From: an uncultured Flavobacteriaceae bacterium
GTDB taxonomy: Bacteria; Bacteroidota; Bacteroidia; Flavobacteriales; Flavobacteriaceae
DNA: 64,000 bases
Direction: 5' to 3'
Assembly: GCA_947500385.1 (NCBI GenBank)
Contig: CANMSA010000001.1
Span: 372,001-436,000 of the forward strand
In this document: positions 7,501-64,000 of the stretch, piece by piece
How positions within the stretch are numbered: position 1 is the first letter of the stretch
Layout: every line of letters begins with the position of its first letter
The notes under the pieces: generated by a model
What the model saw: only the letters and a program-made list of their open reading frames with translations
The model's database searches: none
What the model was told of the DNA's origin: nothing
Translations under genes and position numbers: made by a program

Positions 7501-10500
7501 CCGTTCGCAATTTCCGTCGCATCGAGCACCCCGTCTCCATCGCAATCGGCGGTGGCCGTGATCGTTTCCGTGATATCGGCCACATTATAGGAACAGTTGT
7601 CCTTGGGATCGGTACCATTGGCCACTTCCGTCACATCGAGCACCCCGTCCCCATCACAATCGGCGGTCGCCGTGATTGTTTCCGTAATATCGGCCACGTT
7701 ATAGGAACATGCGTCCTTGGGATCGGTGCCATTGGCCACTTCCGTGGCATCGAGCACCCCGTCCCCATCACAATCGGCAGTCGCCGTGATAGTCACAGTG
7801 ATATCGGCCACGTTATAGGAACATGCGTCCTTGGGATCGGTACCGTTGGCCACCTCCGTGGCATCGAGCACCCCGTCCCCATCACAATCCGCGGTCGCCG
7901 TGATCGTTTCCGTAATATCGGCCACGTTATAGGAACATGCGTCCTTGGGATCGGTACCGTTCGCAATTTCCGTGGCATCGATCACCCCGTCGTCGTCACA
8001 ATCGGCGGTCGCCGTGATCGTTTCCGTGATATCGGCCACGTTATAGGAACATGCGTCTTTTGGATCCGTACCGTTCGCAATTTCCGTGGCATCGAGTACC
8101 CCGTCGCCATCACAATCGGCGGTCGCCGTGATCGTCTCCGTGATATCGGCCACGTTATAGGAACATGCGTCCTTGGGATCGGTGCCATTGGCCACTTCCG
8201 TCGCATCTAGTACCCCGTCGCCATCGCAATCGGCGGTCGCCGTAATCGTCTCCGTGATATCGGCCACGGTATAGGAACATGCGTCCTTGGGGTCGGTTCC
8301 ATTGGCCACTTCCGTTCCATCGATGACCCCGTCCCCATCGCAATCGGCGGTCGCCGTGATCGTCTCCGTGATATCGGCCACGTTATAGGAACATGCGTCC
8401 TTGGGATCGGTACCGTTCGCAATTTCCGTGGCATCGATCACCCCGTCGCCGTCACAATCGGCGGTCGCCGTGATAGTCAAGGTGATATCAACTATGTTAT
8501 AAGAACACTCATCCTTGGGATCCGTACCGTTCGCAATTTCCGTGGCATCGAGCACCCCGTCGCCATCACAATCGGCGGTCGCCGTGATCGTTTCCGTAAT
8601 ATCGGCCACGTTATAGGAACAGTTGTCCTTGGGATCGGTACCATTGGCCACTTCCGTCGCATCGAGCACCCCATCGCCATCGCAATCGGCGGTCGCTGTG
8701 ATCGTTTCCGTGATATCGGCCACGTTATAGGAACATGCGTCTTTGGGGTCGGTGCCGTTGGCCACCTCCGTGGCATCGAGCACCCCGTCCTCATCGCAAT
8801 CGGCGGTGGCCGTGATCGTCTCCGTGATATCGGCCACATTGTATGAACATTCATCCTTGGGATCGGTACCATTGGCCACTTCCGTAGCATCGAGTACCCC
8901 GTCACCGTCACAATCGGCGGTCGCCGTAATCGTTTCCGTGATATCGGCCACGTTGTAGGAGCACTCATCCTTGGGATCGGTGCCATTGGCCACTTCAGTG
9001 GCATCGAGCACCCCGTCCCCGTCACAATCGGCGGTCGCCGTGATCGTCTCCGTGATATCGGCCACGTTATAGGAACACTCGTCTCCTGGATCGGTACCGT
9101 TCGTAATTTCCGTCGCATCAAGCACCCCGTCCCCATCACAATCAGTGGTTGCCGTGATGGCCACAGTTATATCAGCTATGTTATAAGAACACTCGTCCTT
9201 GGGATCGGTACCGTTCGCAATTTCCGTGGCATCGATTACCCCGTCGCCGTCGCAGTCTGTAATAGCTAAAATTGGCTCGGTAATATCTACTACATTGTAG
9301 GAACATTCGTCCTTGGGGTCGGTGCCATTGGCCACTTCCGTGGCATCGAGCACCCCATCCCCATCACAATCAACATCCGACGTGACCGTCACGGTAATAT
9401 CCGCAACATTATAGGAGCACTCATCTTTGGGATCGGTACCGTTCGCCACTTCCGTCGCATCGATTACCCCATCTTCATCACAATCTGAAGTGGCTGTTAT
9501 CGTTACCGTAACATCGGCTACATTATAGGAACAGGCATTTTTGGGATTGGTCCCATTGGCCACTTCTGTGCCATCGATCACACCGTCCCCATCACAATCA
9601 GAGGTAGAAGTAACCGGCTCCGTCACATCGGCAAAAAAATAGGAACAAGCATCCAAGGGATTGGTACTGTTCGCTATTTCCGTACCGTTGATTACCCCAT
9701 CACCATCACAATCGGTACTGTTCCATACTGCGGAAGGTGCAACCGTGGCACTGGCCAATATGAAGCTGCAGAGGTTCAATGGGTTGGTGCTGTCTATAAC
9801 TTCTTGTGCATTCGTTACGCCATCACCATCACAATCCAATGCTTCCCAATAGGCCGTAACATTTGCCAATACCTGAAAATTGGTATAGACACAAGGATCA
9901 TTGGGATCGGAATCCGTCACATTCGGATCTCCGTCACCATCATTATCCAACTCGCATGCACCCACCAAACCGTCATTGTCTTGGTCTATAGTGTCCGCAA
10001 CAGTTACCGCTAAAACAGTACCGGTATCGTAAGCGGCCCCATCGACCAGTCCTGTGCTGCCTACGGTTGCCGGATCCGTACCATAAGTTCCTGTATCACC
10101 TCCATCGGCGGTAGCACTTTCATGCGCTTCGTTGGCATCACTACAGCCATCACCATCACTGTCCAAATTCAAATAATCGGCAATCGCCAAGGTGGTCTCC
10201 GTAGGGTTTGTTCCGGCACCGGCCGAGGTCGGGATACCACTGGTAGTATTATCGGCATTGTCATCATTATCGTCAGCACGCCCTTCCTGACCTATAGCCG
10301 TACTAGGAGTTCCCCCTGCTTCTACGACATCATAAATACCATCATTGTCTGCATCTAAATCCAAATGGTTGGCTACACCGTCACTATCAAAATCATAAAC
10401 ATCGGGAATTCCGTCACCGTTACTATCCGTATAGTCGGTTATACTACCATCGCCGGTACCGTCATCTGTTGTATCGTTCCAATTGAATATTCCATCACCA

Positions 10501-12626
10501 TCTTCGTCCCCGTCCGGTTCATTCGAATTCGCTTCTTCCGTGTCTAGAATACCATCGTTATCATCGTCTAAATCCAGAGCGTCCACCACCGTATCACCGT
10601 CTGAATCGAAGGCCGAACCATTGATCGTAATCGTTAAGGTTGCCGTATCGACATTGCCTCCGGGCTCTCCAAGTTTCTTATCGTTTAAAGTGTAGGGTAT
10701 TGCATCGGTCAGCGTATTACCGGATAACAGATTGATGACATCTAAATTCGTTGGATCTAAGGTGTAGGTGTAACTACCGTCGCTATTGATAGTAATAAAA
10801 CCATAAGTCATCGCAATTTGTACTCCTACATCACCGGCGTTTCCATTTACCTCACTTACCCGGGGTGCGCTGGTTCCCTGCCAGTTCAGATCAGATACGC
10901 CGGCAATTTGAATACCGTTGTCGGCATCGGTCGCTGCCGGTCCGTAGTTATACGACAATACCAGTTGATCGATCGGCTCATTAAAATAGATGTTTATATT
11001 GCCATGGGCATCCTCCGGAGGTACCGAGCCGGTACCATAAAAGAGGTTATCCCCTACCTGCACGACAGACCCGGATACCTGTGGAATAAAGGATACCGGT
11101 GTCCCGGCCAGCGTTCCATTCACTTCAATCTGATCTTGCCAAGTGGTTCCTTGGGACCAGTCTATATCTGAAAGTGTAAAAGAGAGATTCACCACCGCCC
11201 TGTCAAAATTGATAGTGGTTTCTGTGGGTTGCGAAGGATTTACCGAGCCATCTACGGCATAGTAGAGATAGCCCGTATGCCCCCCGTTGGTAGAGAACCT
11301 GAGTACGGTTTGGTTTTCTCCGGGAATCCCCATCCCATCGGGGTCGGTTGAAGAAAAGCTTACATCTACATCATCAACGGTTCTTGTTTCTCCGTTTATC
11401 GGTTGTAAATTTGCGAATTCGTTCTCCCAAATGAGTTGTGACAATGGCCGATCACCGGTATCAACACCGAAGCCGTCATCGTCATATATCACCGAACCTG
11501 AAGCGGTTGTTCCCGTATACACTGTAACGCTGTTTTCGTTATCGGTCGCTACAGGAAGTTCATCGACCCCATTGATGGTAACTGAAATATATCCATAGTC
11601 GATAAACCCCAATGGATCTTGCACGCCATAAGAGATGATATCCGTAATCGTTTCACCCGTCTCGAGGCCACTGACCGCTATATTTGTCGCATCAACAGTA
11701 TAGGAGTAACTGCCATTTGACTGTACCGTAATGAAGCCATAAGTTGACGCGAACACGCTACCAACTGCCGCACTATAACCGTTCACTTCTGAAATGCTCA
11801 ACGTTTGTGACGGAACGGTTGGGTCGGTGTCATTACCCGCTAAATTTCCGGTAACGGCCCCCGTTGCAGCTGCTGAAATCGTATTCACATCGTCAACCGC
11901 TATTGGAGTGTACCCAACATATATAAGGGTTTGGGCCGATGACGTTCCTTCGGAATCGGTGACGGCAACATTCATGGTTCTATTTCCTTCGGTTGCCCCG
12001 GTAGCCAGTTGATGACCGTAAAGCACATTTACCAAGAAGGTCATAAAATCGGTATCGGGGATGGAACCGCCTGCACTATTTACCACGGTAAATACGCCCA
12101 TTGCCGTATTTGTGACCGTAAGCGTGCTGGTCCCAGCTATAATAGCACTGGAGGCGCCCACGACAGATAGATCGTATACGCCACCCAAAGAGCTATCATT
12201 ACTGTTCAGGATACCTATGAATTCATTTCCAGTATCCACGATGCCCGAATAGGTAAGCGTAGCACTTTGAATGCCTCCACCATCCGAACTTACTGTAAGT
12301 TCAGGATTCATATAGGCCCCCACCGAACCGGGCGTGGGTTCTACCAAGGCAGCATGATCGACACCCGATTCACTTCCGTTTAAATCTAATACCGGAGGCG
12401 CCATCATCGGAAACCGAGGAAAAAAGTTTGGCACACTTGTTCCAAAGGATGTCGCTTTCGCATGCGCCTTTATCCCGGGTTCTTTGAGCTCAGGATCGAC
12501 GGTTTCAATAGGATGGACAAATTGACTTAGCCCCAATAGCAATGTTACTAAAGAAGTACTAAGAAACTTTTTTAAAAATGATACGTACGGAGGGGGAGTT
12601 GTACATTGGCAGTTATTGGTTGTCAT
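4521..12626 (-). CDS. Giant TSP3-repeat adhesin with T9SS type B C-terminal domain
   Basis: A 2701-residue secreted surface protein. A hydrophobic signal segment lies at about residues 18-38. Next come cadherin/VCBS-like modules (about 60-670) containing repeated YGFITxxSxGSYxYTxD strands, then calcium-binding thrombospondin type 3 (TSP3) DxDxDG stretches. Residues 994-2361 are 36 tandem 38-residue repeats, each with one DCDGDG-type calcium loop and two Cys (positions 1 and 18). More TSP3 loops follow. The last ~95 residues are the gliding-motility-associated type B domain (start LMTPDADGINDFFRI, then DIYNRWGVKVF, end SGYLYINR). It is probably exported by T9SS with the adjacent PorP/SprF and held at the cell surface. 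The target surface is unknown. Confidence 0.92.
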   Translation of the reverse strand: MTTNNCQCTTPPPYVSFLKKFLSTSLVTLLLGLSQFVHPIETVDPELKEPGIKAHAKATSFGTSVPNFFPRFPMMAPPVLDLNGSESGVDHAALVEPTPGSVGAYMNPELTVSSDGGGIQSATLTYSGIVDTGNEFIGILNSNDSSLGGVYDLSVVGASSAIIAGTSTLTVTNTAMGVFTVVNSAGGSIPDTDFMTFLVNVLYGHQLATGATEGNRTMNVAVTDSEGTSSAQTLIYVGYTPIAVDDVNTISAAATGAVTGNLAGNDTDPTVPSQTLSISEVNGYSAAVGSVFASTYGFITVQSNGSYSYTVDATNIAVSGLETGETITDIISYGVQDPLGFIDYGYISVTINGVDELPVATDNENSVTVYTGTTASGSVIYDDDGFGVDTGDRPLSQLIWENEFANLQPINGETRTVDDVDVSFSSTDPDGMGIPGENQTVLRFSTNGGHTGYLYYAVDGSVNPSQPTETTINFDRAVVNLSFTLSDIDWSQGTTWQDQIEVNGTLAGTPVSFIPQVSGSVVQVGDNLFYGTGSVPPEDAHGNINIYFNEPIDQLVLSYNYGPAATDADNGIQIAGVSDLNWQGTSAPRVSEVNGNAGDVGVQIAMTYGFITINSDGSYTYTLDPTNLDVINLLSGNTLTDAIPYTLNDKKLGEPGGNVDTATLTITINGSAFDSDGDTVVDALDLDDDNDGILDTEEANSNEPDGDEDGDGIFNWNDTTDDGTGDGSITDYTDSNGDGIPDVYDFDSDGVANHLDLDADNDGIYDVVEAGGTPSTAIGQEGRADDNDDNADNTTSGIPTSAGAGTNPTETTLAIADYLNLDSDGDGCSDANEAHESATADGGDTGTYGTDPATVGSTGLVDGAAYDTGTVLAVTVADTIDQDNDGLVGACELDNDGDGDPNVTDSDPNDPCVYTNFQVLANVTAYWEALDCDGDGVTNAQEVIDSTNPLNLCSFILASATVAPSAVWNSTDCDGDGVINGTEIANSTNPLDACSYFFADVTEPVTSTSDCDGDGVIDGTEVANGTNPKNACSYNVADVTVTITATSDCDEDGVIDATEVANGTDPKDECSYNVADITVTVTSDVDCDGDGVLDATEVANGTDPKDECSYNVVDITEPILAITDCDGDGVIDATEIANGTDPKDECSYNIADITVAITATTDCDGDGVLDATEITNGTDPGDECSYNVADITETITATADCDGDGVLDATEVANGTDPKDECSYNVADITETITATADCDGDGVLDATEVANGTDPKDECSYNVADITETITATADCDEDGVLDATEVANGTDPKDACSYNVADITETITATADCDGDGVLDATEVANGTDPKDNCSYNVADITETITATADCDGDGVLDATEIANGTDPKDECSYNIVDITLTITATADCDGDGVIDATEIANGTDPKDACSYNVADITETITATADCDGDGVIDGTEVANGTDPKDACSYTVADITETITATADCDGDGVLDATEVANGTDPKDACSYNVADITETITATADCDGDGVLDATEIANGTDPKDACSYNVADITETITATADCDDDGVIDATEIANGTDPKDACSYNVADITETITATADCDGDGVLDATEVANGTDPKDACSYNVADITVTITATADCDGDGVLDATEVANGTDPKDACSYNVADITETITATADCDGDGVLDVTEVANGTDPKDNCSYNVADITETITATADCDGDGVLDATEIANGTDPKDECSYNVADITETITATADCDGDGVIDATEIANGTDPKDECSYNVADITETITATADCDGDGVLDATEVANGTDPKDNCSYNVADITETITATADCDGDGVLDATEIANGTDPKDECSYNIADITVAITATADCDGDGVLDATEIANGTDPKDECSYNIADITETITATADCDGDGVIDATEVANGTDPKDACSYNVADITETITATADCDGDGVLDATEVANGTDPKDVCSYNVADITETITATADCDGDGVLDATEIANGTDPKDECSYNIADITVAITATADCDGDGVLDAMEIANGTDPRDECSYNVADITETITATSDCDGDGVLDATEVANGTDPKDACSYNLSDITVAVLSPSDCDGDGVLDAAEVANGTDPKDECSYNVADITVTITATADCDGDGVVDATEIANGTDPKDECSYNVTDITETITATADCDGDGVLDATEVANGTDSKDDCSYNVVDITETITATADCDGDGVIDATEIANGTDPKDECSYSVTDITVTIMATADCDGDGVIDGTEIANGTDPKDSCDYRIDDITETISAIVDCDGDGVINGTEIANGTDPRDACDYNMADITVTITATADCDGDGVTNALEIGNGTDPLDACSYNVADITETITATTDCDGDGVLDATEISDGTDPKDACDFVLASTTATTDAAWKNADCDADGLTNEEEITGIDSAITTADPRGSITNPLDADTDDDGINDGQEAIDTTDPTDPCDSLGGTPPTGISCTEDSDGDGISDEQEVLDATDPLDDCDSIGGTPLPTSDCDNDGLNTSEEETMGTDPNDDDTDDDGIADGQEVVDDTDPLEDCDSINGTPLATSDCDNDGLTNGEEEKLGTDPENVDTDGDSIPDGTETNDNTDPLDPCDSLGGTPPDGIACGIEIENELMTPDADGINDFFRIKNIEQYPDNTVDIYNRWGVKVFSAKGYDNEGNVFNGQSNGRVTIQENNQLPVGVYYFIINYTDDGNTITKSGYLYINR
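5544..9647 (-). repeat. 36 x 114-bp in-frame tandem repeat array
   Basis: From the Cys codon at 9647 to the Cys codon at 5543 is exactly 4104 bp, or 36 units of 114 bp, each coding 38 residues of the form CSYNVADITETITATADC... DGDGVLDATE... NGTDPKD. Central units are almost identical in DNA; units near both ends have diverged. Blocks are also duplicated: an ATEIANGTDPKDE unit followed by a CSYNIADITVAIT unit recurs several times. This points to repeated unequal recombination or gene conversion. The copy number may vary between strains and could be misassembled. Confidence 0.95.
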
Positions 12627-54707: not shown

Positions 54708-55037
54708 TTACGAATTATCCTCGACCGTGGCGTCAATCGCATTATTGGTAACGGAAGTGATTCCACCTTCCATTGCCGCAACACTCGAATACATCTCACT
54801 GGTACCGATTACCTGATTATTGCCCGCTCGGAGATTAAAGTACGGACTGCCGTCAGAAGCCGTTTTACGATCGTACCTGGTTTGATCAACGGCATTTGTT
54901 CTAACGGAGGTAATCCCATTCTCGCAAGCCGATTTCGTGGTATAGCCTTCACTTTTTAAAATGACTTCCCCGTTCCCAGCTTTCAGGTTAAACCGAAACT
55001 GATTTGACGCATCTTTTTTAATTACAAATTTTCCCAT
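54708..55037 (-). CDS. YegP/DUF1508-family protein
   Basis: A 109-residue protein made of two DUF1508 repeats: MGKFVIKKDASNQFRFNLKA with GITSVRTNA, and a second unit SPYFNLRAGNNQVIGTSEMY with GGITSVTNNA. It has no signal peptide. It lies 60 bp after the AAA+ ATPase stop on the same strand, so it may be the last gene of the eCIS-like block. The role of DUF1508 is unknown. Confidence 0.9.
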   Translation of the reverse strand: MGKFVIKKDASNQFRFNLKAGNGEVILKSEGYTTKSACENGITSVRTNAVDQTRYDRKTASDGSPYFNLRAGNNQVIGTSEMYSSVAAMEGGITSVTNNAIDATVEDNS

Positions 55038-55097
55038 GATGGTATGTTTAAGGTTATTAACTATGTATTGTCTTTTATTTATATATGAGGCAAGAAA

Positions 55098-56414
55098 TCA
55101 TCGCATGATCCTTCCCCCTTTTTGAAACTCTCTTCGAATACCGCTGGTAATATAGGAAGCGGTTATTGTTTTCTTTTTTTCCTCCAAAGCACACAAACAG
55201 GCATACTGCACTACATTCATGATTTCCGCTCCTGAAATCTCGTACTTCCTTGCCATACTGCCCAAATCTAAATCGGGGCTTAATTTTACTACCGAGGGAA
55301 ACGCTTTTTCCCATAAGATCAGGCGTTCCGCTGCCTTTGGCATTGGAAAGTGGACAATGGATTGAAAACGGCGTATAAACGCTTCATCAATATTGCTTTT
55401 GAAATTGGAAGCGAGAATCACGAGGCCTTTGTACCCTTCGATACGTTGTAATAGATATGAAACTTCTTGGTTCGCATATTTGTCATGTGCGTCTCGCACA
55501 CTAGTGCGCTTCCCGAACAGCGCGTCACATTCATCACAAAAAAGGATATTATCCGTCTTCTCTGCTTTGGCCAACAAATTGGACAAGTTTTTTTCTGTTT
55601 CCCCTATAAATTTAGAAACCACCATAGAAAGATCTATTCGATAAACTTGTTTTCCCGTATACTTTCCCAATAAATTGGCGGTGAGGGTTTTTCCTGTTCC
55701 AGGCGGACCATAAAAAAGTGCTCGGTATCCAGGCTTTATCTTTTTACCCAGGCCCCAATCATCCAACAACGTATCCCCATAGGTAACCCATGTCTGTAAT
55801 TCTGATACTTGACGTTGCGTTTCCTCATTTAAGACTAAATCATCCCATTCCATTTCAGTGGTAATTAGTTCTGCAGGGAACTTCATACTAAACCTTGGCG
55901 TACGCATCTTACCCAAAACAAAGAGTTCTATATAATCTGAGGATAGCACCAGCTTACCACTCATTACCGGTTCTCCTTCTGAAGCTTCTTCTAGCCATAG
56001 TATGTGCTTTTTGGCAAAAAGGTGGTCGGATCCGAACAGTTCATATATGGGTTTTCGATTTTTAAAATTATCACCGTCCAACAAAAAGAGTGCCGTCTGT
56101 CCTGTGGGCAAAAATCCCCTGAAATTCTTTCCCCGAACGCCTCCCAACTGCGGGAAGTCTCCTGTAGCCGCCAATTTGCCTTGAATAATCTGATCTAAAA
56201 GATTGCTCGCGATATGTGGGCAAAGGGCCAACAATACCACTATCTTTTCTTGCTTCTGCAACTTTGCCTGTTTTAATACCTCGGGAATATGTATTCCCCA
56301 CTTGCTCAATGGTGGCATCTTAGGTTCTTTGGTGGTACTACTGGGATCAAAGTAACGATCCAGTCGGTATCTAACAAAAGCTTCTAAGTATTTGAATTCT
56401 GGCAAATCTGTCAT
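55098..56414 (-). CDS. AAA+ ATPase, Afp15/PVC15-like
   Basis: A 438-residue ATPase. A non-AAA N-terminal region (about 1-200) is followed by the AAA+ core: Walker A GPPGTGKT (236-243), Walker B ending DECD (294-297; the fourth residue pattern is usually DExD), and sensor/arginine region ILASNFKSNIDEAFIRRF. Single ATPases of this layout are a standard part of eCIS loci (Afp15/PVC15), where they act in assembly or cargo loading. Two DUF4157 genes lie upstream on the same strand, the nearer one 20 bp away, which supports that role. A general Cdc48/FtsH-type helper ATPase is the alternative. Confidence 0.78.
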   Translation of the reverse strand: MTDLPEFKYLEAFVRYRLDRYFDPSSTTKEPKMPPLSKWGIHIPEVLKQAKLQKQEKIVVLLALCPHIASNLLDQIIQGKLAATGDFPQLGGVRGKNFRGFLPTGQTALFLLDGDNFKNRKPIYELFGSDHLFAKKHILWLEEASEGEPVMSGKLVLSSDYIELFVLGKMRTPRFSMKFPAELITTEMEWDDLVLNEETQRQVSELQTWVTYGDTLLDDWGLGKKIKPGYRALFYGPPGTGKTLTANLLGKYTGKQVYRIDLSMVVSKFIGETEKNLSNLLAKAEKTDNILFCDECDALFGKRTSVRDAHDKYANQEVSYLLQRIEGYKGLVILASNFKSNIDEAFIRRFQSIVHFPMPKAAERLILWEKAFPSVVKLSPDLDLGSMARKYEISGAEIMNVVQYACLCALEEKKKTITASYITSGIRREFQKGGRIMR

Positions 56415-56434
56415 TGTAATACAATTGTTTTAAT

Positions 56435-57769
56435 TTAACGTACTGGCAGCCACCCGCCGCTTGCCCAGTTTAAAAAAGGAGGTAGCGATTTTCTATCTTC
56501 AATGAATTTAGCCTGCTGCTCGGCATTCCAAAACCGCCACGGAATACGAAAACGAATCATAGGATGGTAATTATAAGCACCTGAACGTGTACCTGTTAAC
56601 AGCCATGAGGCTAGTTGTGCGCTTAAAGCACTTGGTATGTATCCATACGGGACACCGTTTTGATGCTGCCATACATGCGCGGCTTCATGAATTAGCGTAC
56701 TGTCTGAAATGGCTCCTGGGCTCGCTATCAAGTTTCCTATGGTTCTGGCAACGCCATCGGGCGAGCATATACTGTTTTGACAAATCCGCACTGAAAAGTA
56801 GTTTAAATGGGGGCCGTACACCGGCATTAAAACACCTATTTCCCGTCTATTCAAAGGCCTCCCAAGAGCGCTTCCGATCAAGGTAGTGGTATCTGGAATT
56901 AAATTGCGAAGAGGGCCCAATATGGGACTCGTTTGAGGATCTCTCTGAATCTTGGGTAGGATCGTTTTATTTTGCTGCACTACATGTGTTAATTCATGTG
57001 CCAAAAGGCGTTTCCCTTCCGTAGAATCTGGATTATACTTGCCTGCATTAAAGTAAACGTCTTTCCCGTGCGTAAAAGCGTTGGCGCCCAGTTCTTTGTT
57101 CATTTTAACCGCATCCTGATCGGTATGAATGTTGACTCCACTAAAATCAACTCCAAAGGAAGTTTCCATTTCTGTCTTTGTTTTCTTTGACATACTTCGC
57201 CCCCTTCCTGATTTATGTTTCAGCTTCCGTGTTACCCCCGTACTTGCTGTTTGCGGCGTGCGGGCAGTTGTACTTTTTGTTTGAATGGGGGCCGTTTCCT
57301 CCTCCTCTTTTTCCCCATCCATCTTATTGATCATTCCGGATGCTTCTTCTTCCTCCTTTTCTCCATCCATTTTATTGATCATTCCCTCCTCTTCCTCAAG
57401 ACCTGGCATCTTTTCGGTTTCTGGCTTTTCCTGAATCAATTTATCTTCTTCCATACGCTGTTCCGCCGTACCGAGCTTTTCATCTTTCAAGGGAGTGGCC
57501 AGTGATTCTCGTTGAATGCTACTGATCTCTTTGTTCTGAATGTCTGGTTTTGCGGTTTTGTTGACAACAGCATTTGCCACATTATCCGCTTCTTTCTCAT
57601 ATTTATCCCCGGCTTCGCCCACCTTCAGCTTCGTTTGAACAGTTCCCTTGGAAGAACCATTGAAAAAAGGTTTTTTAACCTCCTTTCCAAAAAACGATGC
57701 TTCTTCTTTCCCTGATTCCTCATTGGTATGTGGACTCTTGTTTCGGCTACTTGAGAATATACTTTTCAT
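56435..57769 (-). CDS. DUF4157 (eCIS core domain) protein with second zinc-protease-like motif
   Basis: A 444-residue protein without a signal peptide. The N-terminus has the usual linker VQTKLKVGEAGDKYEKEADN (about 44-63) and a duplicated acidic 16-residue segment (129-160). The DUF4157 core (about 196-266) reads FGVDFSGVNIHTD, AFTHGKDVYFNAGKY and HELTHVVQQ (His258, Glu259, His262). A second HExxH, HEAAHVWQHQ (361-370), lies in the C-terminal domain near ASWLLTGTRSGAYNYHP. DUF4157 marks eCIS cargo or loader proteins. The two HExxH motifs suggest metal sites, but protease activity is unproven. Confidence 0.82.
   Translation of the reverse strand: MKSIFSSSRNKSPHTNEESGKEEASFFGKEVKKPFFNGSSKGTVQTKLKVGEAGDKYEKEADNVANAVVNKTAKPDIQNKEISSIQRESLATPLKDEKLGTAEQRMEEDKLIQEKPETEKMPGLEEEEGMINKMDGEKEEEEASGMINKMDGEKEEEETAPIQTKSTTARTPQTASTGVTRKLKHKSGRGRSMSKKTKTEMETSFGVDFSGVNIHTDQDAVKMNKELGANAFTHGKDVYFNAGKYNPDSTEGKRLLAHELTHVVQQNKTILPKIQRDPQTSPILGPLRNLIPDTTTLIGSALGRPLNRREIGVLMPVYGPHLNYFSVRICQNSICSPDGVARTIGNLIASPGAISDSTLIHEAAHVWQHQNGVPYGYIPSALSAQLASWLLTGTRSGAYNYHPMIRFRIPWRFWNAEQQAKFIEDRKSLPPFLNWASGGWLPVR
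57290..57385 (-). repeat. 2 x 48-bp in-frame repeat in the DUF4157 gene
   Basis: Two adjacent 16-residue units (GMINKMDGEKEEEEAS and GMINKMDGEKEEEETA, residues 129-160) form an acidic linker between the N-terminal linker and the DUF4157 core. The DNA is nearly identical and may vary in copy number. Confidence 0.75.
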
Positions 57770-57779
57770 CTTATTTGAT

Positions 57780-58544
57780 TTAGGTGTTCATTCGTTCTAA
57801 AAACTCATCGGTAAGGTCTGCGTAGTCAAAAGCACCGTTGGCGTTGGCGTCATGGTTGAAAATATGAGTGCCATTTTCTTGCGCGTTGGCAAGCGCAATA
57901 TTGGTTCTAATGTGCGTTGCAAAGACATTCTTAGCGGTAAACTCGGTCTCAAGTTCTTTCTTTATCTGACGATTCATTTTCTTTCGTTCGTCGTACTTGG
58001 TCAGTACAAAGCCCAATAGCGTTATTTTTTTATTCAGTTTTCGAATGCGTTTAAAATGTGCCAAAAAACTACGGGCCCCTTTTAAAGGTAAAAATTCTGC
58101 CTGCAAAGGAATTAGCACATAATCGCTTGCCACCAAAGCGTTGATGGTGAGCATTCCCATAGACGGGGGACAATCAATGAATACAAAATCATACCCGGTC
58201 AGCGATCGTATCAATTGAGAAAGGATATGTTCCCGACCATAAACGCTTGACAGTTCCAATTCTGCATTGGCCAGGTCGAGCGATGCAGGAATGAGATCCA
58301 AACCCGACTTCTTTACCAACACCTCCAATAAATCTGTCTCTTCTCCCATCGCTTCTTTGTGCAACACCGAATAGATGGCCTTCTCATCTTCTTCTACCCC
58401 CAACGATTGAGAAAGATTGGCCTGGGGATCTACATCGAGCAATAGTACCTTTTTGCCTCTTGTTTTCAATCCGGCAGCCAAGTTGATTGCGGTGGTGGTT
58501 TTCCCAACACCTCCTTTGAAATTTGCTATTGCTATTACTTTCAT
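57780..58544 (-). CDS. ParA-like ATPase
   Basis: A 254-residue ParA/Soj-type ATPase with the deviant Walker A AIANFKGGVGKTTTAINLA (about 4-22), Walker A' LLLDVDPQANLSQSLG and Walker B FVFIDCPPSMGM. No ParB, parS-like repeat or replication gene is nearby. It sits between a DUF4157 gene (10 bp downstream) and the haloperoxidase gene. In this setting it may position injection particles or cargo in the cell, rather than partition a replicon; that is inference. Confidence 0.85.
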   Translation of the reverse strand: MKVIAIANFKGGVGKTTTAINLAAGLKTRGKKVLLLDVDPQANLSQSLGVEEDEKAIYSVLHKEAMGEETDLLEVLVKKSGLDLIPASLDLANAELELSSVYGREHILSQLIRSLTGYDFVFIDCPPSMGMLTINALVASDYVLIPLQAEFLPLKGARSFLAHFKRIRKLNKKITLLGFVLTKYDERKKMNRQIKKELETEFTAKNVFATHIRTNIALANAQENGTHIFNHDANANGAFDYADLTDEFLERMNT

Positions 58545-58626
58545 CCTATTTCACTTTCTTTTTGGCTTAAATCTGTTCTGCTTATATCATTTGGCAATTT
58601 CCTTCAAGGAAAGAACGGCGTATGGT

Positions 58627-60039
58627 CTACCCCAATTCCCCATTAAAATATTGCATGGCCTTGTTCCAAACTTCGCAACCCACATTCATCCCCAAGGCTC
58701 GGCCTTCCATATCACCATCCTTAAAATGGATACCTCCATAGAGCCTTGAAATACCTGCCTCGTCAGCAGCGTCTTTCAAATTTTTCCAATGAATGGTAAG
58801 GTCTTCGGCGGGGGTACAATCGGGCTCTATTCTGGACCCTCCCTTTGGGATGACCACCGATTCCCCATATTTGCCATTCCCACAAAAACTAGATAACACT
58901 TCTGCGGCGGCGGCACTGAAAGTGCTATGCCCGGAAACATATTCTGCAAAGGGAGGTGTTGGGATGTACGGAAGCCAGTTTTCCCCTTCTATTTCCTTAG
59001 TACCTTCACAAGGTCCGCCCCAGGCAGTAATGCTCTTGCCACGGTATAAATTCTGTATGGCGGAAATGGGACGTACATAATCGTAAAATACTTTACAGTC
59101 CCAGGCTGCAATTGCCGCATCTAAAAGAGCATTTCCGAGCAGAAAAAACAACTTAATATCATACGCATTCTTATGACCGTACATTCTAGAGAGGTAGCGC
59201 GCCTGTCTACAACATTGCTCTGGCGGGGTAGCCGATCGCGAGGTATCATCTTTGACAGCATCTACAAATTTGTCTTCATGCATCCCTGCCCAGAATTCTG
59301 CCACCAACTTTTGGGTATCGGTAAGATTTGCGCTGTAATGCAATACCTGATCGGCCTGTTTTTTGAACTCATTTTTATCACATCCGATCGGGGAAGGTGG
59401 TCTGCACTGTCCCCCCCATAGCAATGCAAAGGGTTTCACCAACCCCCAATGAGCGGTCAAGAACTCTTGCGGCTTATGACCATTTAGCTGCGCTTGCCAA
59501 TGATCTTCGTATTTCATAGGTTGTGGCAGGGGCGGGTTTATAGGGCTATAGTTGCTATAATCGCTGTAGTTCCCTTCCTGTAGGGTCGCATGCTGGTTGG
59601 CGCCATCGCCCATTCTGCATTCGAGCACTAGGAGCCCTGATAGATTGCCTACACCTATGGCATTGTCGGGAATCAGGTTTTTATTGTCAGGGTCAAAATT
59701 ACAATCGCACATAAAATCGCGAAACATGCTTTTCTTTTCTGGGGGTAATTCACACCAAAAAAGGGCCTGCACAACGGTAAATGCAGCATGGCTATATGCC
59801 GTTTCCCTATTTTCGGTAGTACAGTTGCTATCGGGTTGTTTTAGGCGACTGCCGGTCGTGGTGCTCACTTCACAGCCTCCGTCGTTGTAATTCGTCCATG
59901 CATCGTACATGGCCGTATGTACCATCGCCAAGGCCCTAGCGGCCACGGTTGGCGGGAAATTCACATAGTGGATGGCATCGCATACCAAGCGATTCCATTG
60001 GTGGGCTTTGCTGGGGATGTATTGTTTTGTTGTTGCCAT
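58627..60039 (-). CDS. Soluble vanadium-dependent haloperoxidase (PAP2 superfamily)
   Basis: A 470-residue protein without a signal peptide or membrane helix. The vanadate-binding set is complete and correctly spaced: Lys316 and Arg323 (DCKVFYDYVRP), Ser369-Gly370-His371 (VSGHSTF), Arg432 and His438 (SRLYGGIHF). The Lys-Arg spacing of 7 and Arg-His spacing of 6 are those of vanadium chloroperoxidase, as known from the family. It would oxidise halides with H2O2 to hypohalous acid; acid-phosphatase activity is possible in this fold. Which halide cannot be read. Its place among eCIS-type genes makes it a candidate cargo. Confidence 0.85.
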   Translation of the reverse strand: MATTKQYIPSKAHQWNRLVCDAIHYVNFPPTVAARALAMVHTAMYDAWTNYNDGGCEVSTTTGSRLKQPDSNCTTENRETAYSHAAFTVVQALFWCELPPEKKSMFRDFMCDCNFDPDNKNLIPDNAIGVGNLSGLLVLECRMGDGANQHATLQEGNYSDYSNYSPINPPLPQPMKYEDHWQAQLNGHKPQEFLTAHWGLVKPFALLWGGQCRPPSPIGCDKNEFKKQADQVLHYSANLTDTQKLVAEFWAGMHEDKFVDAVKDDTSRSATPPEQCCRQARYLSRMYGHKNAYDIKLFFLLGNALLDAAIAAWDCKVFYDYVRPISAIQNLYRGKSITAWGGPCEGTKEIEGENWLPYIPTPPFAEYVSGHSTFSAAAAEVLSSFCGNGKYGESVVIPKGGSRIEPDCTPAEDLTIHWKNLKDAADEAGISRLYGGIHFKDGDMEGRALGMNVGCEVWNKAMQYFNGELG

Positions 60040-60094
60040 TGTTCTTTTTTTTTATAAGTTTCTTTAGATCGTTTTGTTTTAAGGTCGCATCGGT

Positions 60095-60568
60095 TTAACT
60101 GTTTGATTCTTCTATGGTTGGTCTGTCAAAAAAATTATCTCCCTTGATAATACTTTCTACAACCTCCGTTAATGAAACACCCGCAAAAATCGAATCTTCT
60201 ATAAACAGTGAGCCTAGTTGTACAATGTAAACAGCATACGCGCCATTACCGAGTGCATTTGTTGGGTCATAGAAATAAATACTGCCGCCGGCATCATCTC
60301 CAATTACGAACATATCCGGAATATTTTCTATAAACCGTTCATCCATATTATGGCCAATCAAAATTTTTGGGGATTCCAGGTGTATGACCATTTCATCTCC
60401 TTTAATGGTGCCTTGATGAAAGGTTTTTACAAAGCTCAAATAGTCCTTGGGCAGTTTCAATGAATGTACTTCTTGGAGTTCATCAACAAACCGAAGCCCA
60501 TCAGCTTGCTCATCGGGCCTACTTTCTTTTGGCAAGGACTTTATTAATTTTATTAAATTATTTTTCAT
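60095..60568 (-). CDS. SUKH (SMI1/KNR4) family immunity protein
   Basis: A 157-residue soluble acidic protein of the SMI1/KNR4 superfamily: LKLPKDYLSFVKTFHQG near the start (usual LPxxYxxFL motif), MFVIGDDAGGSIYFYDP (GxGxxxY-type motif) and a late helix (TEVVESIIKGDNFFD). SUKH proteins are typical immunity partners of polymorphic nuclease toxins. It starts 15 bp after the stop of the DUF4157-toxin gene, exactly where such an immunity gene is expected. It should bind and block the toxin's C-terminal domain. Confidence 0.82.
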   Translation of the reverse strand: MKNNLIKLIKSLPKESRPDEQADGLRFVDELQEVHSLKLPKDYLSFVKTFHQGTIKGDEMVIHLESPKILIGHNMDERFIENIPDMFVIGDDAGGSIYFYDPTNALGNGAYAVYIVQLGSLFIEDSIFAGVSLTEVVESIIKGDNFFDRPTIEESNS

Positions 60569-60583
60569 ATTATATAAATGGTA

Positions 60584-63500
60584 TTAAGGGGTCCAACTTC
60601 CAAAGTATTTTACTAAGCTGCCAGGGTCGGTCGTTTCTATTTGACGATATAGCTGTCCAAAATAAGTGTCACTGTCATTGATTATTCTTTGGGCATGCAC
60701 CGTTGGCACATCTGCTGCCTGCATGTCTGCTATCATAAGTTGTCGTTCATCTGCGTAGGTCCTTGTTGCACGTCCAGCCCTTCTAGTTCTTGATGCTTGC
60801 CTAGCAGTAATTCTTTGATGGGGAGAACCTGTTTTAGAATCCCTCAGCAAAATAGCCGGGCAATCGTTTCTTCTGTAACCGGGAATCCTCTTGGCCCAAG
60901 TATCCTGAATACCATGATGGGATTGAAAGAAGTTTTGTGTACCGCGGGTCCCGGATAGTGTGCCGTGATTGCTAACCTCATATTCCCAAATTTTGGTTCC
61001 TCCCGGTCTGCTATATTCCCATCTACCACCTACGAGTCTTGCGGTAGCCCCTGGTTCAACGACATTATCTACAGCTATAGCACGATTTAAGCGTCGTTCC
61101 AAATCAGCGACATCGGATACACTTTCAATTGTATCAATGGCCGGCGTCAGGTTTCTTCTTCTCAACGGATGATTCAAATATTCCCTTAATCCCTTATGAG
61201 ACTGTAATTCAGGGAATCTATTAATTAGGGTTTCCAACCTTCCTAAATCGCTTGCCGATGGCCTTGGTCTTGTCGGGATACATGGACTACTACATTGAGT
61301 CAACAATCTGCGAACCGCCGGATTCATTTCGGAATAAAACCTTCTTAAACCGGGGTTGTCCCTAAACAACCTTCTGGTAAGGGGATTGAGGTTGTTTTCC
61401 CAACGCCTGGTAGCGGGTGGCAATTCTACCCCACCCGGGCCAACGACTTTTAATCTCCTTGCCAAGGCCACTTCCCCTACTTCAAGGACAATGGACACCC
61501 CCAAACCGATCCATGCCCACATCAAGGCATTCTCGGCTTGTTCTACTGTAACCCTTCGTATATCTTGACGCGTATCCATTCGAGCCATGTCAAGAACTTC
61601 TTGGGCATCAACGACGTCTTTGACACCCATTCCAATACTCACAGCCAGATCAATCGCTTTCAGTAAAATACCTCCGACCCCCGGTACCAGCATACTCGCC
61701 ACCGAAAGACTGACCATACCAGCGACCAATAGAAGTTCTTCAAAAGCACGTTCTGAACTTTCTTTCCAATGCCATGCGACAATGGTACGTGCCAAAAAGG
61801 GATTATTTTCGGCGGTCACCTCTCCTCTAAGAACTTGCAGTGTAAGGGTCCCTTCTGGAAATTCACTGATGCCAAGACGCGCCCTGGCCTCGTCATATAC
61901 TTCACCTGCATAATCCAGAGGGTCAAAATCCCCATCATTGATATCTTCTTTGACAGAATCGTACAATTCAATGGCTTCCAATAGCTCTTCCTTCCGTTCC
62001 TCTGCTCCGTCAGGATCCAAACGAATGGCTGCCTCATCTTCCATAAAAGTGGCCGCGTCCCTCAATTTTGAAACATCCGATTTTCTAACAATCTCGCCAT
62101 TTAACTCAATAGACTCGTAGTTATCCTCTTCAAGGTTATTGGCAATATCCTGATACTCTTCGGCCCCTGCACGTAAACGAATGGCAAATTCATAATTGGC
62201 GATATCCCAATTGTCGTACATGCCTTGCATCTCATCCCGATTGCGCTTGAGTTTTTCCTTTGCAATGGTCTTCAGCATTTCGAGCCACTCATTTTCTATG
62301 AATTCATTGGCATTATCCGCCACATTTTCAATGACTTCCGCAATATCTTCGAATTCCACGTTCACCGACTCACGAATTGCCTCCCTTGCCCTTCTCTCTT
62401 GCTCTTCAATGAGATCTGAAAATTCGGAGTAGGTGGAAAACAACTGGGGTAACATGAAAACTCCGGCCATTTCGGCAGGATACGCAAGCGTATTTAGAAT
62501 ATTCCTCCCAAAGTCAATGATTTCTTTGGTGATTGCACTGCCGGGAACCACACTATCCAATAAATTGTAAGTAGCCCTAGCGATTTCGGTCGCTATTGTG
62601 AAGTAATCATAAGGATTGTTGGCTATGTTCGCTATGTCGGTATCTAACTCATCTATAGGAGTATTGGTCAATTCATCGGCTAATGTATCGTTATACATTT
62701 CCCGACCTTTTGCCAGGGTATGATACAACACCAAACTTCTAAATCTACCTTCTTCAATGGCCGCAAAGCGCAAGGCATATAGCATATCCGGGTCCGAAAG
62801 GGAGAATTCCATGAACTTATCGACCAAATGGTTTAACAAACCTTCTTTATAGTTTTCTAAATCAAGCGCTTCCAGCCATTGTTCAGGTGATAATCCACTT
62901 ACCGCCCACTCGTCTAATAAATAACTGATCATCAATCCCGGTACGTCGTATTCAATGAAGTCGGCCAACAACAACTCCCGCTCAGCTTCTATTTCTTCCG
63001 CGCTATTTTCTGGTCGGAAATCTTCGATGTTAAAGTTTTCGGGAACATATTGGATGGCCTCGATTTGCGGAATCCAGTGGAACAGAAATTTCTCGCTATG
63101 AACTTGCAGGGTTTCCTCGGTAAAGTCATCGACCGTGAGCGTACGCAATACAAAATCGGAATAAACGATGCCTTCAAACTCATCGAGATCCGGACTGATC
63201 GCACCCGCAACGGGATCATTGCCACTTACTTCTGATAACATGATGGATAATACCAGTTGATACAAATCAAAGTCTGACGCCTGCATTAAGTTTTCTGGCT
63301 CCCAAGGCAAACGTGCTTGCAAGGCCGGAATGACTACGTTCCAATCTATGGCAGCCGGGTCATAGTTTGTATTGTTTTCGAGATATTCTTCCAGTTTGTA
63401 TAAAATCACATTCTCCGTAATGGATCGTATTCTTGCACTGATCCGCGCCTCGAGCAGCGGCATTTCAATCACTCCGCCTACCCTTGCCCAAGCCCTTGCA

Positions 63501-64000
63501 TCGCGTTCAATTAGGCTTTTTATACTTGTACTCCTAAGAAACTCAGCAGTTTCATGAATGGGACCTTCCTCAGGAGAGAACACCTGTTCTATATGCTCTT
63601 CAAATATTGACCAAGCATTGTCCGTGTTCGAGAAAAAATCCAACGTTTCCTGGTCTACCGCCAAATCATAATCGAGTGTTTCATCACCAAAGTATACTCT
63701 TATATACAAGGTTTCCGTAAGGGTATTTTGGCAATCAGGTGGACATGCCCGTTGTACATCCGGCATTTCTTTTTTCGCTATCCCTGCGCTAGCCCCCTGT
63801 TGCACCGTATGGGTCAATTCATGTGCCAACAAATGCTTGCCCGAAGCCGTATCTGGTCGGTATTTCCCTTCGTTAAAATAAATATCATTGCCATGGGTAA
63901 AAGCCTGAGCATTCAGGTCTTTGCTCATTTGTACTGCCTTGCTATCGGTATGGATGTTAACCCCACTGAAATCTGCTCCGATGCCCCCCTCCATCTGATT
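60584..64000 (-). CDS. DUF4157 polymorphic toxin with Tox-SHH-like nuclease C-terminus, partial
   Basis: The frame is open through the right edge, so the N-terminus is missing; more than 1138 codons are visible. At the right end lies the DUF4157 core (GADFSGVNIHTDSKAVQMSK, GNDIYFNEGKYRPD, HELTHTVQQ). A long acidic helical region with Asp/Glu-rich blocks follows, then two hydrophobic stretches (LVAGMVSLSVASMLVPGVGG and MWAWIGLGVSIVLEVGEVAL) like those that precede toxin tips. The C-terminal ~115 residues contain QSHHGIQDTWA and a basic, His-containing GSPHQRITARQASR, as in the Tox-SHH HNH/EndoVII nucleases. A SUKH immunity gene follows by 15 bp. It probably delivers a DNase or RNase. Confidence 0.8.
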   Translation of the reverse strand, partial: NQMEGGIGADFSGVNIHTDSKAVQMSKDLNAQAFTHGNDIYFNEGKYRPDTASGKHLLAHELTHTVQQGASAGIAKKEMPDVQRACPPDCQNTLTETLYIRVYFGDETLDYDLAVDQETLDFFSNTDNAWSIFEEHIEQVFSPEEGPIHETAEFLRSTSIKSLIERDARAWARVGGVIEMPLLEARISARIRSITENVILYKLEEYLENNTNYDPAAIDWNVVIPALQARLPWEPENLMQASDFDLYQLVLSIMLSEVSGNDPVAGAISPDLDEFEGIVYSDFVLRTLTVDDFTEETLQVHSEKFLFHWIPQIEAIQYVPENFNIEDFRPENSAEEIEAERELLLADFIEYDVPGLMISYLLDEWAVSGLSPEQWLEALDLENYKEGLLNHLVDKFMEFSLSDPDMLYALRFAAIEEGRFRSLVLYHTLAKGREMYNDTLADELTNTPIDELDTDIANIANNPYDYFTIATEIARATYNLLDSVVPGSAITKEIIDFGRNILNTLAYPAEMAGVFMLPQLFSTYSEFSDLIEEQERRAREAIRESVNVEFEDIAEVIENVADNANEFIENEWLEMLKTIAKEKLKRNRDEMQGMYDNWDIANYEFAIRLRAGAEEYQDIANNLEEDNYESIELNGEIVRKSDVSKLRDAATFMEDEAAIRLDPDGAEERKEELLEAIELYDSVKEDINDGDFDPLDYAGEVYDEARARLGISEFPEGTLTLQVLRGEVTAENNPFLARTIVAWHWKESSERAFEELLLVAGMVSLSVASMLVPGVGGILLKAIDLAVSIGMGVKDVVDAQEVLDMARMDTRQDIRRVTVEQAENALMWAWIGLGVSIVLEVGEVALARRLKVVGPGGVELPPATRRWENNLNPLTRRLFRDNPGLRRFYSEMNPAVRRLLTQCSSPCIPTRPRPSASDLGRLETLINRFPELQSHKGLREYLNHPLRRRNLTPAIDTIESVSDVADLERRLNRAIAVDNVVEPGATARLVGGRWEYSRPGGTKIWEYEVSNHGTLSGTRGTQNFFQSHHGIQDTWAKRIPGYRRNDCPAILLRDSKTGSPHQRITARQASRTRRAGRATRTYADERQLMIADMQAADVPTVHAQRIINDSDTYFGQLYRQIETTDPGSLVKYFGSWTP

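Follow-up and report, generated by a model that had tools for sequence, protein, structure and literature searches.

The window is a stretch of 64,000 nucleotides from an uncultured Flavobacteriaceae bacterium (genome G000), covering C1:372001-436000 of the 758,592-base contig C1. Its right end enters a locus of 25 minus-strand open reading frames (ORFs) across C1:426708-466752, with intergenic gaps of -20 to 220 bases and a 52-residue DUF5908 (Cis6-like) gene inside a 168-base gap on the same strand. The predicted product of this locus is a contractile injection system (CIS) that is complete, chromosomally encoded, and of a lineage of its own. Near its downstream end lies a gene for a vanadium-dependent haloperoxidase (VHPO) family protein, which appears to behave as a lineage-fixed gene and not as exchangeable cargo.

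In transcription order, the locus begins with a LuxR regulator, a Pvc16-type cap, p447, the sheath, p298, p326, and two gp19-type tubes, followed by the DUF5908 protein, a CIS_tube protein, a VgrG-like spike, PAAR, and gp25. Next are a 1553-residue Cis11-like protein, a 2386-residue Cis12-like protein, the tape measure, and the hydrophobic-segment protein TM221. The remaining genes encode a 1339-residue effector with two DUF4157 domains, a 133-residue protein, a 1583-residue DUF4157/Tox-SHH effector, a SUKH protein, the VHPO, ParA, a 444-residue DUF4157 effector, an AAA ATPase, and a DUF1508 protein.

The VHPO gene (58627..60039, minus strand) encodes a 470-residue protein with 16 Cys. It matches the family VCPO_2nd (PF22778) at 1.5e-29 over most of its length, and its best PDB match is the vanadium-dependent haloperoxidase 9l8x (1.7e-53). 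Relatives were sought in the GTDB genome collection with a four-sequence alignment and two peptide patterns, a scan that misses relatives with neither pattern. The best 80 of 169 confirmed relatives were retained, many with flanks that end at contig ends, and inspection of their neighborhoods divided the loci into two groups of 37 (L083-L118 and L120) and 43 (L119 and L121-L162). All 37 loci of the first group (VHPO identity 42-80%) carry CIS genes in their flanks. In the available flanks of the other 43 (43% identity or less), nothing matches a sheath, tube, baseplate, tape measure, or DUF4157 domain, and the AAA or ParA matches that occur are few and weak. Among the CIS-linked loci, the AAA ATPase is present in 36, the following DUF4157 gene in 33, ParA in 28, and the tape measure in 25, and a block consisting of VHPO, ParA where present, DUF4157 gene, and AAA ATPase can be recognized recurring in that order. 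A search that covered 35 VHPO-type genomes (all but those of L086 and L115) found a spike gene in every one, 34 at 662 bits or more and one as a 75-bit fragment. In all 32 of these 35 genomes in which the distance is measurable (L095 and L103, on short contigs, and L109, the fragment, are omitted), the spike gene is followed on the same strand by the VHPO, 13-37 kb downstream; placement of both genes on one contig was judged from coordinates, strand, and distance.

A quick VHPO tree of 75 of the 81 rows (L119, L123, L126, L130, L131, and L134 lack a usable ORF) places all 38 CIS-linked rows, including that of the window, on one side of a branch with a Shimodaira-Hasegawa-like approximate likelihood ratio test (SH-aLRT) value of 100. 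VHPO divergence tracks that of the AAA ATPase (Spearman 0.90, n = 36), the tape measure (0.83, n = 26), and ParA (0.79, n = 29). Across five pairs drawn from these four genes, the coefficients are 0.79-0.90, and none of 999 permutations reached as high. This co-divergence shows long joint inheritance and not function. The VHPO and ParA could also be bystanders that hitch-hike in a conserved operon, as gene order within a family can persist by vertical inheritance alone. However, the block keeps its order in loci of Flavobacteriaceae, Saprospiraceae, Chitinophagaceae, Sphingobacteriaceae (where ParA is mostly lacking), and a single Methylococcales metagenome-assembled genome (MAG) while the upstream effectors differ, and the bystander account is considered very unlikely.

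Besides members of these four families, the carriers of the CIS-linked VHPO are two Bacteroidota MAGs with no named family and the Methylococcales MAG, a case that may reflect faulty binning. The carriers include Leptobacterium flavescens, Chitinophaga ginsengisegetis, and Pedobacter species, and many are named Aquimarina. In an even sample of the phylum, 74 of 395 genomes contain a spike-like gene. Eleven genomes carry a relative of the VHPO at E 1e-40 or better, and since only two of these share a contig between VHPO and spike (G000 and G727, with the VHPO 25 and 19 kb downstream), the VHPO lineage is rare among CISs. In an ATPase tree, the VHPO-less genome G034 falls inside the VHPO-type clade with weak support (45), and the labels change 2 times versus 13.3 in shuffles. 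Of the 43 genomes whose VHPO is unlinked, six contain a spike-like gene at E 1e-20. G908 has a 92-bit spike match on C1 that lies, by coordinates, megabases away from its VHPO. Only at L132 (Burkholderiales; G896:C52:27255-54241) are the two close together: the VHPO there looks exported, and an ordinary CIS, probably unrelated, starts about 12 kb downstream.

The window VHPO keeps K316, R323, S369, G370, H371, R432, and H438, all seven vanadate-site residues, whose roles are presumed from fungal vanadium chloroperoxidase (VCPO). The VCPO structure 1idq and 9ptr are further haloperoxidase structures compared with it, and the residue aligned to H371 is a Ser in its two best PDB matches. The vanadate-site residues are intact in 33 of the 38 CIS-linked VHPOs; the site is degraded in four Sphingobacteriaceae rows and Agriterribacter (L114, L116, L117, L118, and L120). 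PAP2 phosphatases and VHPOs share an oxyanion site, and the protein could instead be a soluble PAP2-type phosphatase, an enzyme of other chemistry, or a scaffold that keeps the fold. A PAP2 match of 18.6 bits, below the cut-off, the retention of the gene in the five lineages with a degenerate site, and the presence of NapH3 and NapH1 among the five best PDB matches are consistent with this, NapH3 presumably being a VHPO homolog with other chemistry. The best-scoring families and chains, however, are VCPO_2nd, DUF6851, and chains named vanadium-dependent haloperoxidase. These alternatives are judged unlikely.

The window VHPO carries no export signal. A hydrophobic leader is absent from 37 of the 38 CIS-linked VHPOs and present in 24 of the 37 others; the sole CIS-linked VHPO with a leader, L084, may reflect the choice of start codon. 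The VHPO also lacks a feature that marks the effectors of these loci. At least two FF motifs occur in the first 75 residues of 67 of 73 DUF4157 proteins from VHPO loci. Shuffling 1000 times gave on average 1.6 and never more than 7 such proteins, and residues 151-225 of the same proteins gave 0 of 73. Elsewhere, the feature is found in 19 of 499 other ORFs of at least 200 residues from the 80 loci and in 14 of 25 in CIS loci without a VHPO. The FF motif is a candidate loading signal. An earlier survey detected, in its available text, no conserved signal sequence (PMC11297309), and the accessible part of another describes homology among signal peptides as rare (PMC11495950).

None of the 75 VHPO ORFs, CIS-linked or not, has the double FF motif near its start, and the VHPO as an ordinary loaded effector was rejected on this ground. 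The VHPO could still be a weapon enzyme that is released or carried with the particle, its hypohalite adding to nuclease killing at the target. The largely intact vanadate site and the position of the gene at the effector end of the operon agree with such a role, as does the number of carriers named Aquimarina, a marine genus. Set against it are the contrast in FF motifs between VHPOs and effectors and the fact that the VHPO diverges with the ATPase and is not exchanged. A weapon role is possible but doubtful.

The VHPO, the Cis12-like protein, and the two lineage-specific proteins p298 and p326 are cysteine-rich. In the window genome, Cis12 contains 67 Cys, p298 contains 18, and p326 and the VHPO contain 16 each, whereas the spike, sheath, and tubes contain 0-2. 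Over 470 alignment columns, CIS-linked VHPOs have a median of 15.5 Cys (range 7-19) versus 0 (0-5) in the 37 others (p = 5e-14), and Cis12 has a median of 2.9% Cys (n = 22, many of them C-terminal pieces) versus 1.5% in CISs without a VHPO (n = 16, p = 2e-7); both p-values are optimistic because the rows are related. The seven Cis12 ORFs of at least 2000 residues contain 2.2-2.8% Cys, compared with a maximum of 1.9% among the 16 without a VHPO. A content of 3% Cys is reached by 22 of 37 VHPOs versus 1 of 117 unassigned ORFs of at least 250 residues in the 37 loci, and the VHPO is the most cysteine-rich of the 33 ORFs of at least 250 residues in the window. In p326 (13 of 16), p298 (13 of 18), and Cis12 (44 of 67), the share of invariant positions is higher for Cys than for the remaining residues. 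None of the five proteins checked has more than one CxxC motif, an argument against zinc or iron-sulfur sites of the ordinary kind. Outside the CIS locus, the window also holds a very large ORF with 3.3% cysteine (4521-12626).

Of 35 VHPO-type genomes, 34 contain p326; in a set of 395 from the order, G000 and G088 alone do. The protein has 9-20 Cys in 31 sequences (the window and 30 of the 34 matches), with nine columns in which Cys occurs in at least 80%. The protein p298 is present in 29 of 35 VHPO-type genomes versus 1 of 26 others; one of these 26, G727, has a VHPO, and its contig begins beside the spike gene. A weak p298-like gene lies near the spike in G661 (G661:C5:309889-310515), a genome with no VHPO at E 1e-40, and may mark an older stage of the lineage.

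The enrichment bears on a third alternative, in which the VHPO acts in the producer cell, either in peroxide-triggered lysis that frees the particles or in peroxide disposal. The lack of an export signal in nearly all CIS-linked VHPOs suits an enzyme that stays inside, and the release of extracellular contractile injection systems (eCISs) is described as relying on producer lysis in the part of the literature consulted (PMC12210884). This account leaves the cysteine enrichment common to the VHPO, Cis12, p298, and p326 unexplained and is judged improbable. Particle oxidation, in which the VHPO would act on the cysteines of the machine, is the tentatively favored role. A role beyond those named here is considered quite unlikely.

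ParA is a 254-residue orphan ParA-type ATPase (57780..58544, minus strand) that matches PF13614 at 1e-54 and contains a KGGVGKTT Walker motif. No ParB was recognized among the locus genes beside it. ParA/McdA positioning ATPases (PMC6328274, PMC10241942, in their available text) share the ParA family and Walker motif with the window protein; unlike them, it has no known partner. Its proposed role in positioning is drawn from this family analogy. Activation of ParA by the basic N-terminus of the ATPase-proximal DUF4157 protein was considered and dropped, as the same N-terminus occurs in the ParA-less CIS loci G002, G008, G034, L101, and L102. ParA is also absent from four of the five loci with a degraded vanadate site (L114, L116, L117, L118, and L120).

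The AAA+ ATPase is a 438-residue protein of the Pvc15/Afp15 type (55098..56414, minus strand; PF00004, 8.3e-27), a putative effector loader whose gene comes after that of the DUF4157 protein in the terminal part of VHPO-type loci. Pvc15 is described as an effector-loading ATPase in the accessible text of one survey (PMC11495950). An identity as an IetA-type anti-phage ATPase was rejected, because the match scores 93 bits against an NCBIfam cut-off of 510 and no IetS was found among the 10 proteins scanned. The ATPase-proximal DUF4157/eCIS_core effector (444 residues, 56435..57769, minus strand; eCIS_core, 1e-33) has a basic N-terminus with two FF motifs and a putative metallopeptidase C-terminus (DUF6782, 25.5 bits, below the cut-off of 27). 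Pfam domains in the 33 ATPase-proximal effectors examined (32 of 33 and that of the window, with L103 omitted) include SH3, peptidoglycan-binding, OmpA, YkuD, and metallopeptidase domains, each in 1-3 proteins, so that a few bear domains directed at the envelope or of peptidase type. These effectors begin with a more basic N-terminus than the upstream ones, the median net charge over the first 18 residues being 3 versus 1.

The effectors upstream of the VHPO have the organization of polymorphic toxins. The 1583-residue DUF4157 effector (60584..64000, minus strand, with its gene running on to window coordinate 65335) ends in a Tox-SHH domain (1.3e-14), and the adjoining 157-residue SUKH (SMI1/KNR4) protein (60095..60568, minus strand; PF09346, 1.4e-5, 26.1 bits at a cut-off of 25.4) is its predicted immunity protein. 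This pair of an exchangeable nuclease C-terminus and a neighboring SUKH gene fits the polymorphic toxin-immunity layout. The 1339-residue effector (C1:437763-441782, minus strand) contains two far-apart eCIS_core domains and an endonuclease C-terminus by Pfam. Across VHPO-type genomes, the N-termini and DUF4157 cores of the effectors are alike and their C-termini unlike, except in the two nearest ATPase-proximal effectors. A small ORF lies behind 32 of 43 effectors upstream of the VHPO. The C-terminal toxin domains identified by Pfam are Endonuclea_NS_2 (4), XOO_2897 deaminase (2), AHH (1), WHH (1), and colicin DNase (1). SUKH, ankyrin, TPR, HEAT, and LRR are common immunity folds, and LGT and OmpA are not. 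In a Pfam scan of 53 small proteins (50 of 52 from the loci and three of the window genome, one of which, TM221, is not downstream of an effector), the matches listed, covering 25 of 45 families, include SUKH in 3 proteins, that of the window among them, ankyrin, TPR, and HEAT in 2 each, and LRR, LGT, and OmpA in 1 each. The toxin-immunity end of the locus is ordinary for an eCIS.

Taken as a whole, the locus is best explained as a complete CIS with antibacterial effectors and their immunity proteins, in which the VHPO would serve as a machine part that oxidizes cysteines and ParA would serve in positioning; overall confidence in this explanation is roughly 0.6. The ATPase would load the effectors by their N-termini, which carry two or three FF motifs before the DUF4157 domain, and the particle would be fired at bacteria while the small genes protect the producer and its kin. 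The leaderless VHPO would belong to the machine itself rather than to its toxins and would generate hypohalite from H2O2 and halide, and the hypohalite would oxidize cysteines of the giant Cis12-like protein, p298, p326, and the VHPO itself, which could cross-link or switch the particle. ParA would place the particles in the cell. A more specific and speculative version is a redox-gated machine, in which a cysteine network made up of p298, p326, and the Cis12-like protein with its 67 Cys forms the baseplate and is oxidized by the machine's own hypohalite enzyme. Locking, maturation, or firing of the particle would then answer to peroxide and halide, and the orphan ParA would place it. This version is doubtful.

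Several observations weigh against the combined reading. G370 and R432 are lost in all five degraded-site loci, and one has also lost H371; because these lineages nevertheless keep the gene and a cysteine-rich Cis12 (2.0-5.4%), the usual catalysis looks dispensable in them. Co-divergence is expected of any vertically inherited genes. Window Cis12 has its Cys mostly in the C-terminal third, and the C-terminal pieces from elsewhere inflate the median of 2.9%. Cys residues are not significantly more invariant in the VHPO (12 of 16 versus 65%) or the Cis11-like protein (11 of 20 versus 36%), and a higher Cys content in leaderless than in exported proteins may have other causes. ParA is missing from 9 of the 37 CIS-linked loci. 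Among the 43 upstream effectors, 11 have no small gene behind them, and at most 9 C-termini belong to a toxin family known to Pfam. As for the lineage itself, its structural genes do not separate it cleanly, as the VgrG scores of G520, G549, and G661, which have no VHPO at E 1e-40, exceed that of L107 (661.9 bits).

By sequence, the machine is a single-sheath, tube-and-spike device. The sheath gene (C1:462423-463820) lies 26.4 kb past the window edge, and its product and the 1553-residue Cis11-like baseplate protein (C1:451276-455937) both match PDB 7b5h; the two gp19-type tubes (C1:459389-460339) were recognized by Pfam, as were the tape measure (CIS_TMP, 4e-109) and the cap (Pvc16_N, 1e-27). 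The three genes or gene pairs with coordinates here are on the minus strand. The initial annotation predicted that the structural genes lie to the right of base 64000 and named their absence within about 30 kb as evidence to the contrary. Sheath, tube, spike, and baseplate genes are indeed present within 30 kb on the same strand, along with genes for the CIS_tube protein, PAAR, gp25, the tape measure, the cap, and the DUF5908 protein, the baseplate set including the Cis12-like protein. The genes it listed inside the window, namely the AAA+ ATPase, two DUF4157 proteins, ParA, the haloperoxidase, and the toxin/immunity pair, are all present on the minus strand. Its description of them as accessory and cargo genes holds for the DUF4157 and SUKH genes and fails for the VHPO, which behaves as a stable trait of a single CIS lineage.

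The four eCIS_core domains in three proteins of the locus are the sole matches in the genome at E 0.001 or better. For p298, p326, and p447, PDB searches gave no match at E 0.1. Residues 900-2386 of the Cis12-like protein have no informative PDB sequence match except at about residues 1926-2107. Pfam recognized no tail fiber (Cis13) among the locus proteins. Fiber genes are described, in the available part of one paper, as hard to find and missing from most eCIS annotations, and fiberless loci as possibly acting intracellularly (PMC12923769). In this system with no recognized fiber, about residues 780-1080 of the Cis11-like protein, the most variable and gapped part in the four genomes compared, are a candidate exposed or target-facing region. 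TM221 was considered as a general membrane anchor like Streptomyces CisA (PMC12237407, in its accessible text) and rejected, as it was recognized in only some VHPO-type loci.

Two further features lie at the margins of the locus and beyond it. The DUF1508 gene (54708..55037, minus strand), which the initial annotation left unnamed, encodes 109 residues with two DUF1508 repeats by Pfam. It is probably not part of the CIS, because it adjoins the ATPase only here and in G007 among the loci examined. On another contig, a type VI secretion system VasE/TssK match barely exceeds its family cut-off (G000:C15:127361-127501).

Coupling of a haloperoxidase to a phage-tail machine would connect the chemistry of oxidants with the injection of proteins. 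No paper joining a haloperoxidase with a CIS was found in the open literature, outside which lie most subscription papers and bioRxiv preprints. The literature matches listed include no PAP2-, vanadium-, chloroperoxidase-, or orphan-ParA-linked CIS, those listed by a wider search do not contain "haloperoxidase", none of the papers listed for ParA concerns a CIS-linked ParA, and a search for CISs with disulfides or cysteine-rich proteins returned only unrelated papers. Pairs of DUF4157 effectors and immunity proteins are already known in eCISs; what sets this lineage apart is a VHPO that stays fixed, an orphan ParA, and a cysteine enrichment common to several proteins. The lineage is near the Anabaena and Algoriphagus systems by sequence and includes named strains, and the oxidation model makes clear predictions on disulfides, peroxide, and halide.

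Compared with known vanadium-dependent haloperoxidase relatives, the CIS-linked form is leaderless and cysteine-rich. The toxin end of the locus resembles the eCIS-associated toxins (PMC8213781), whose N-terminal DUF4157, C-terminal toxin, toxin-immunity pairs, and LuxR/GerE regulator, as given in the available text, are all features of the window locus; the main text of the paper includes neither "peroxidase" nor "PAP2". The machine itself is related by sequence to the CISs of Anabaena and Algoriphagus. The Anabaena thylakoid-anchored CIS (tCIS, PDB 7b5h) is the best PDB match for the sheath (All3325, 1.7e-149), the spike (All3320, 5.5e-177), Cis11 (All3317, 1.7e-154), and Cis12 (All3315, 6.9e-132), and the accessible text of its description reports DUF4157 cargo genes, as in the window locus (PMC8894136). 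However, Cis12 has 2386 residues in the window system versus 1335 in tCIS, and p298 and p326 are extra. The Cis13 fiber and Cis19 crown of tCIS have no homolog recognized in the window locus by Pfam and PDB searches, and the main text of the tCIS paper mentions no ParA and uses "peroxidase" once, for an antibody label (PMC8894136). AlgoCIS of Algoriphagus machipongonensis (PDB 7aef) is the second-best match for the sheath, the spike, and both baseplate proteins. The main text of its description does not contain "peroxidase", and in its available part DUF4157 cargo is demonstrated in the tube lumen (PMC8894135).

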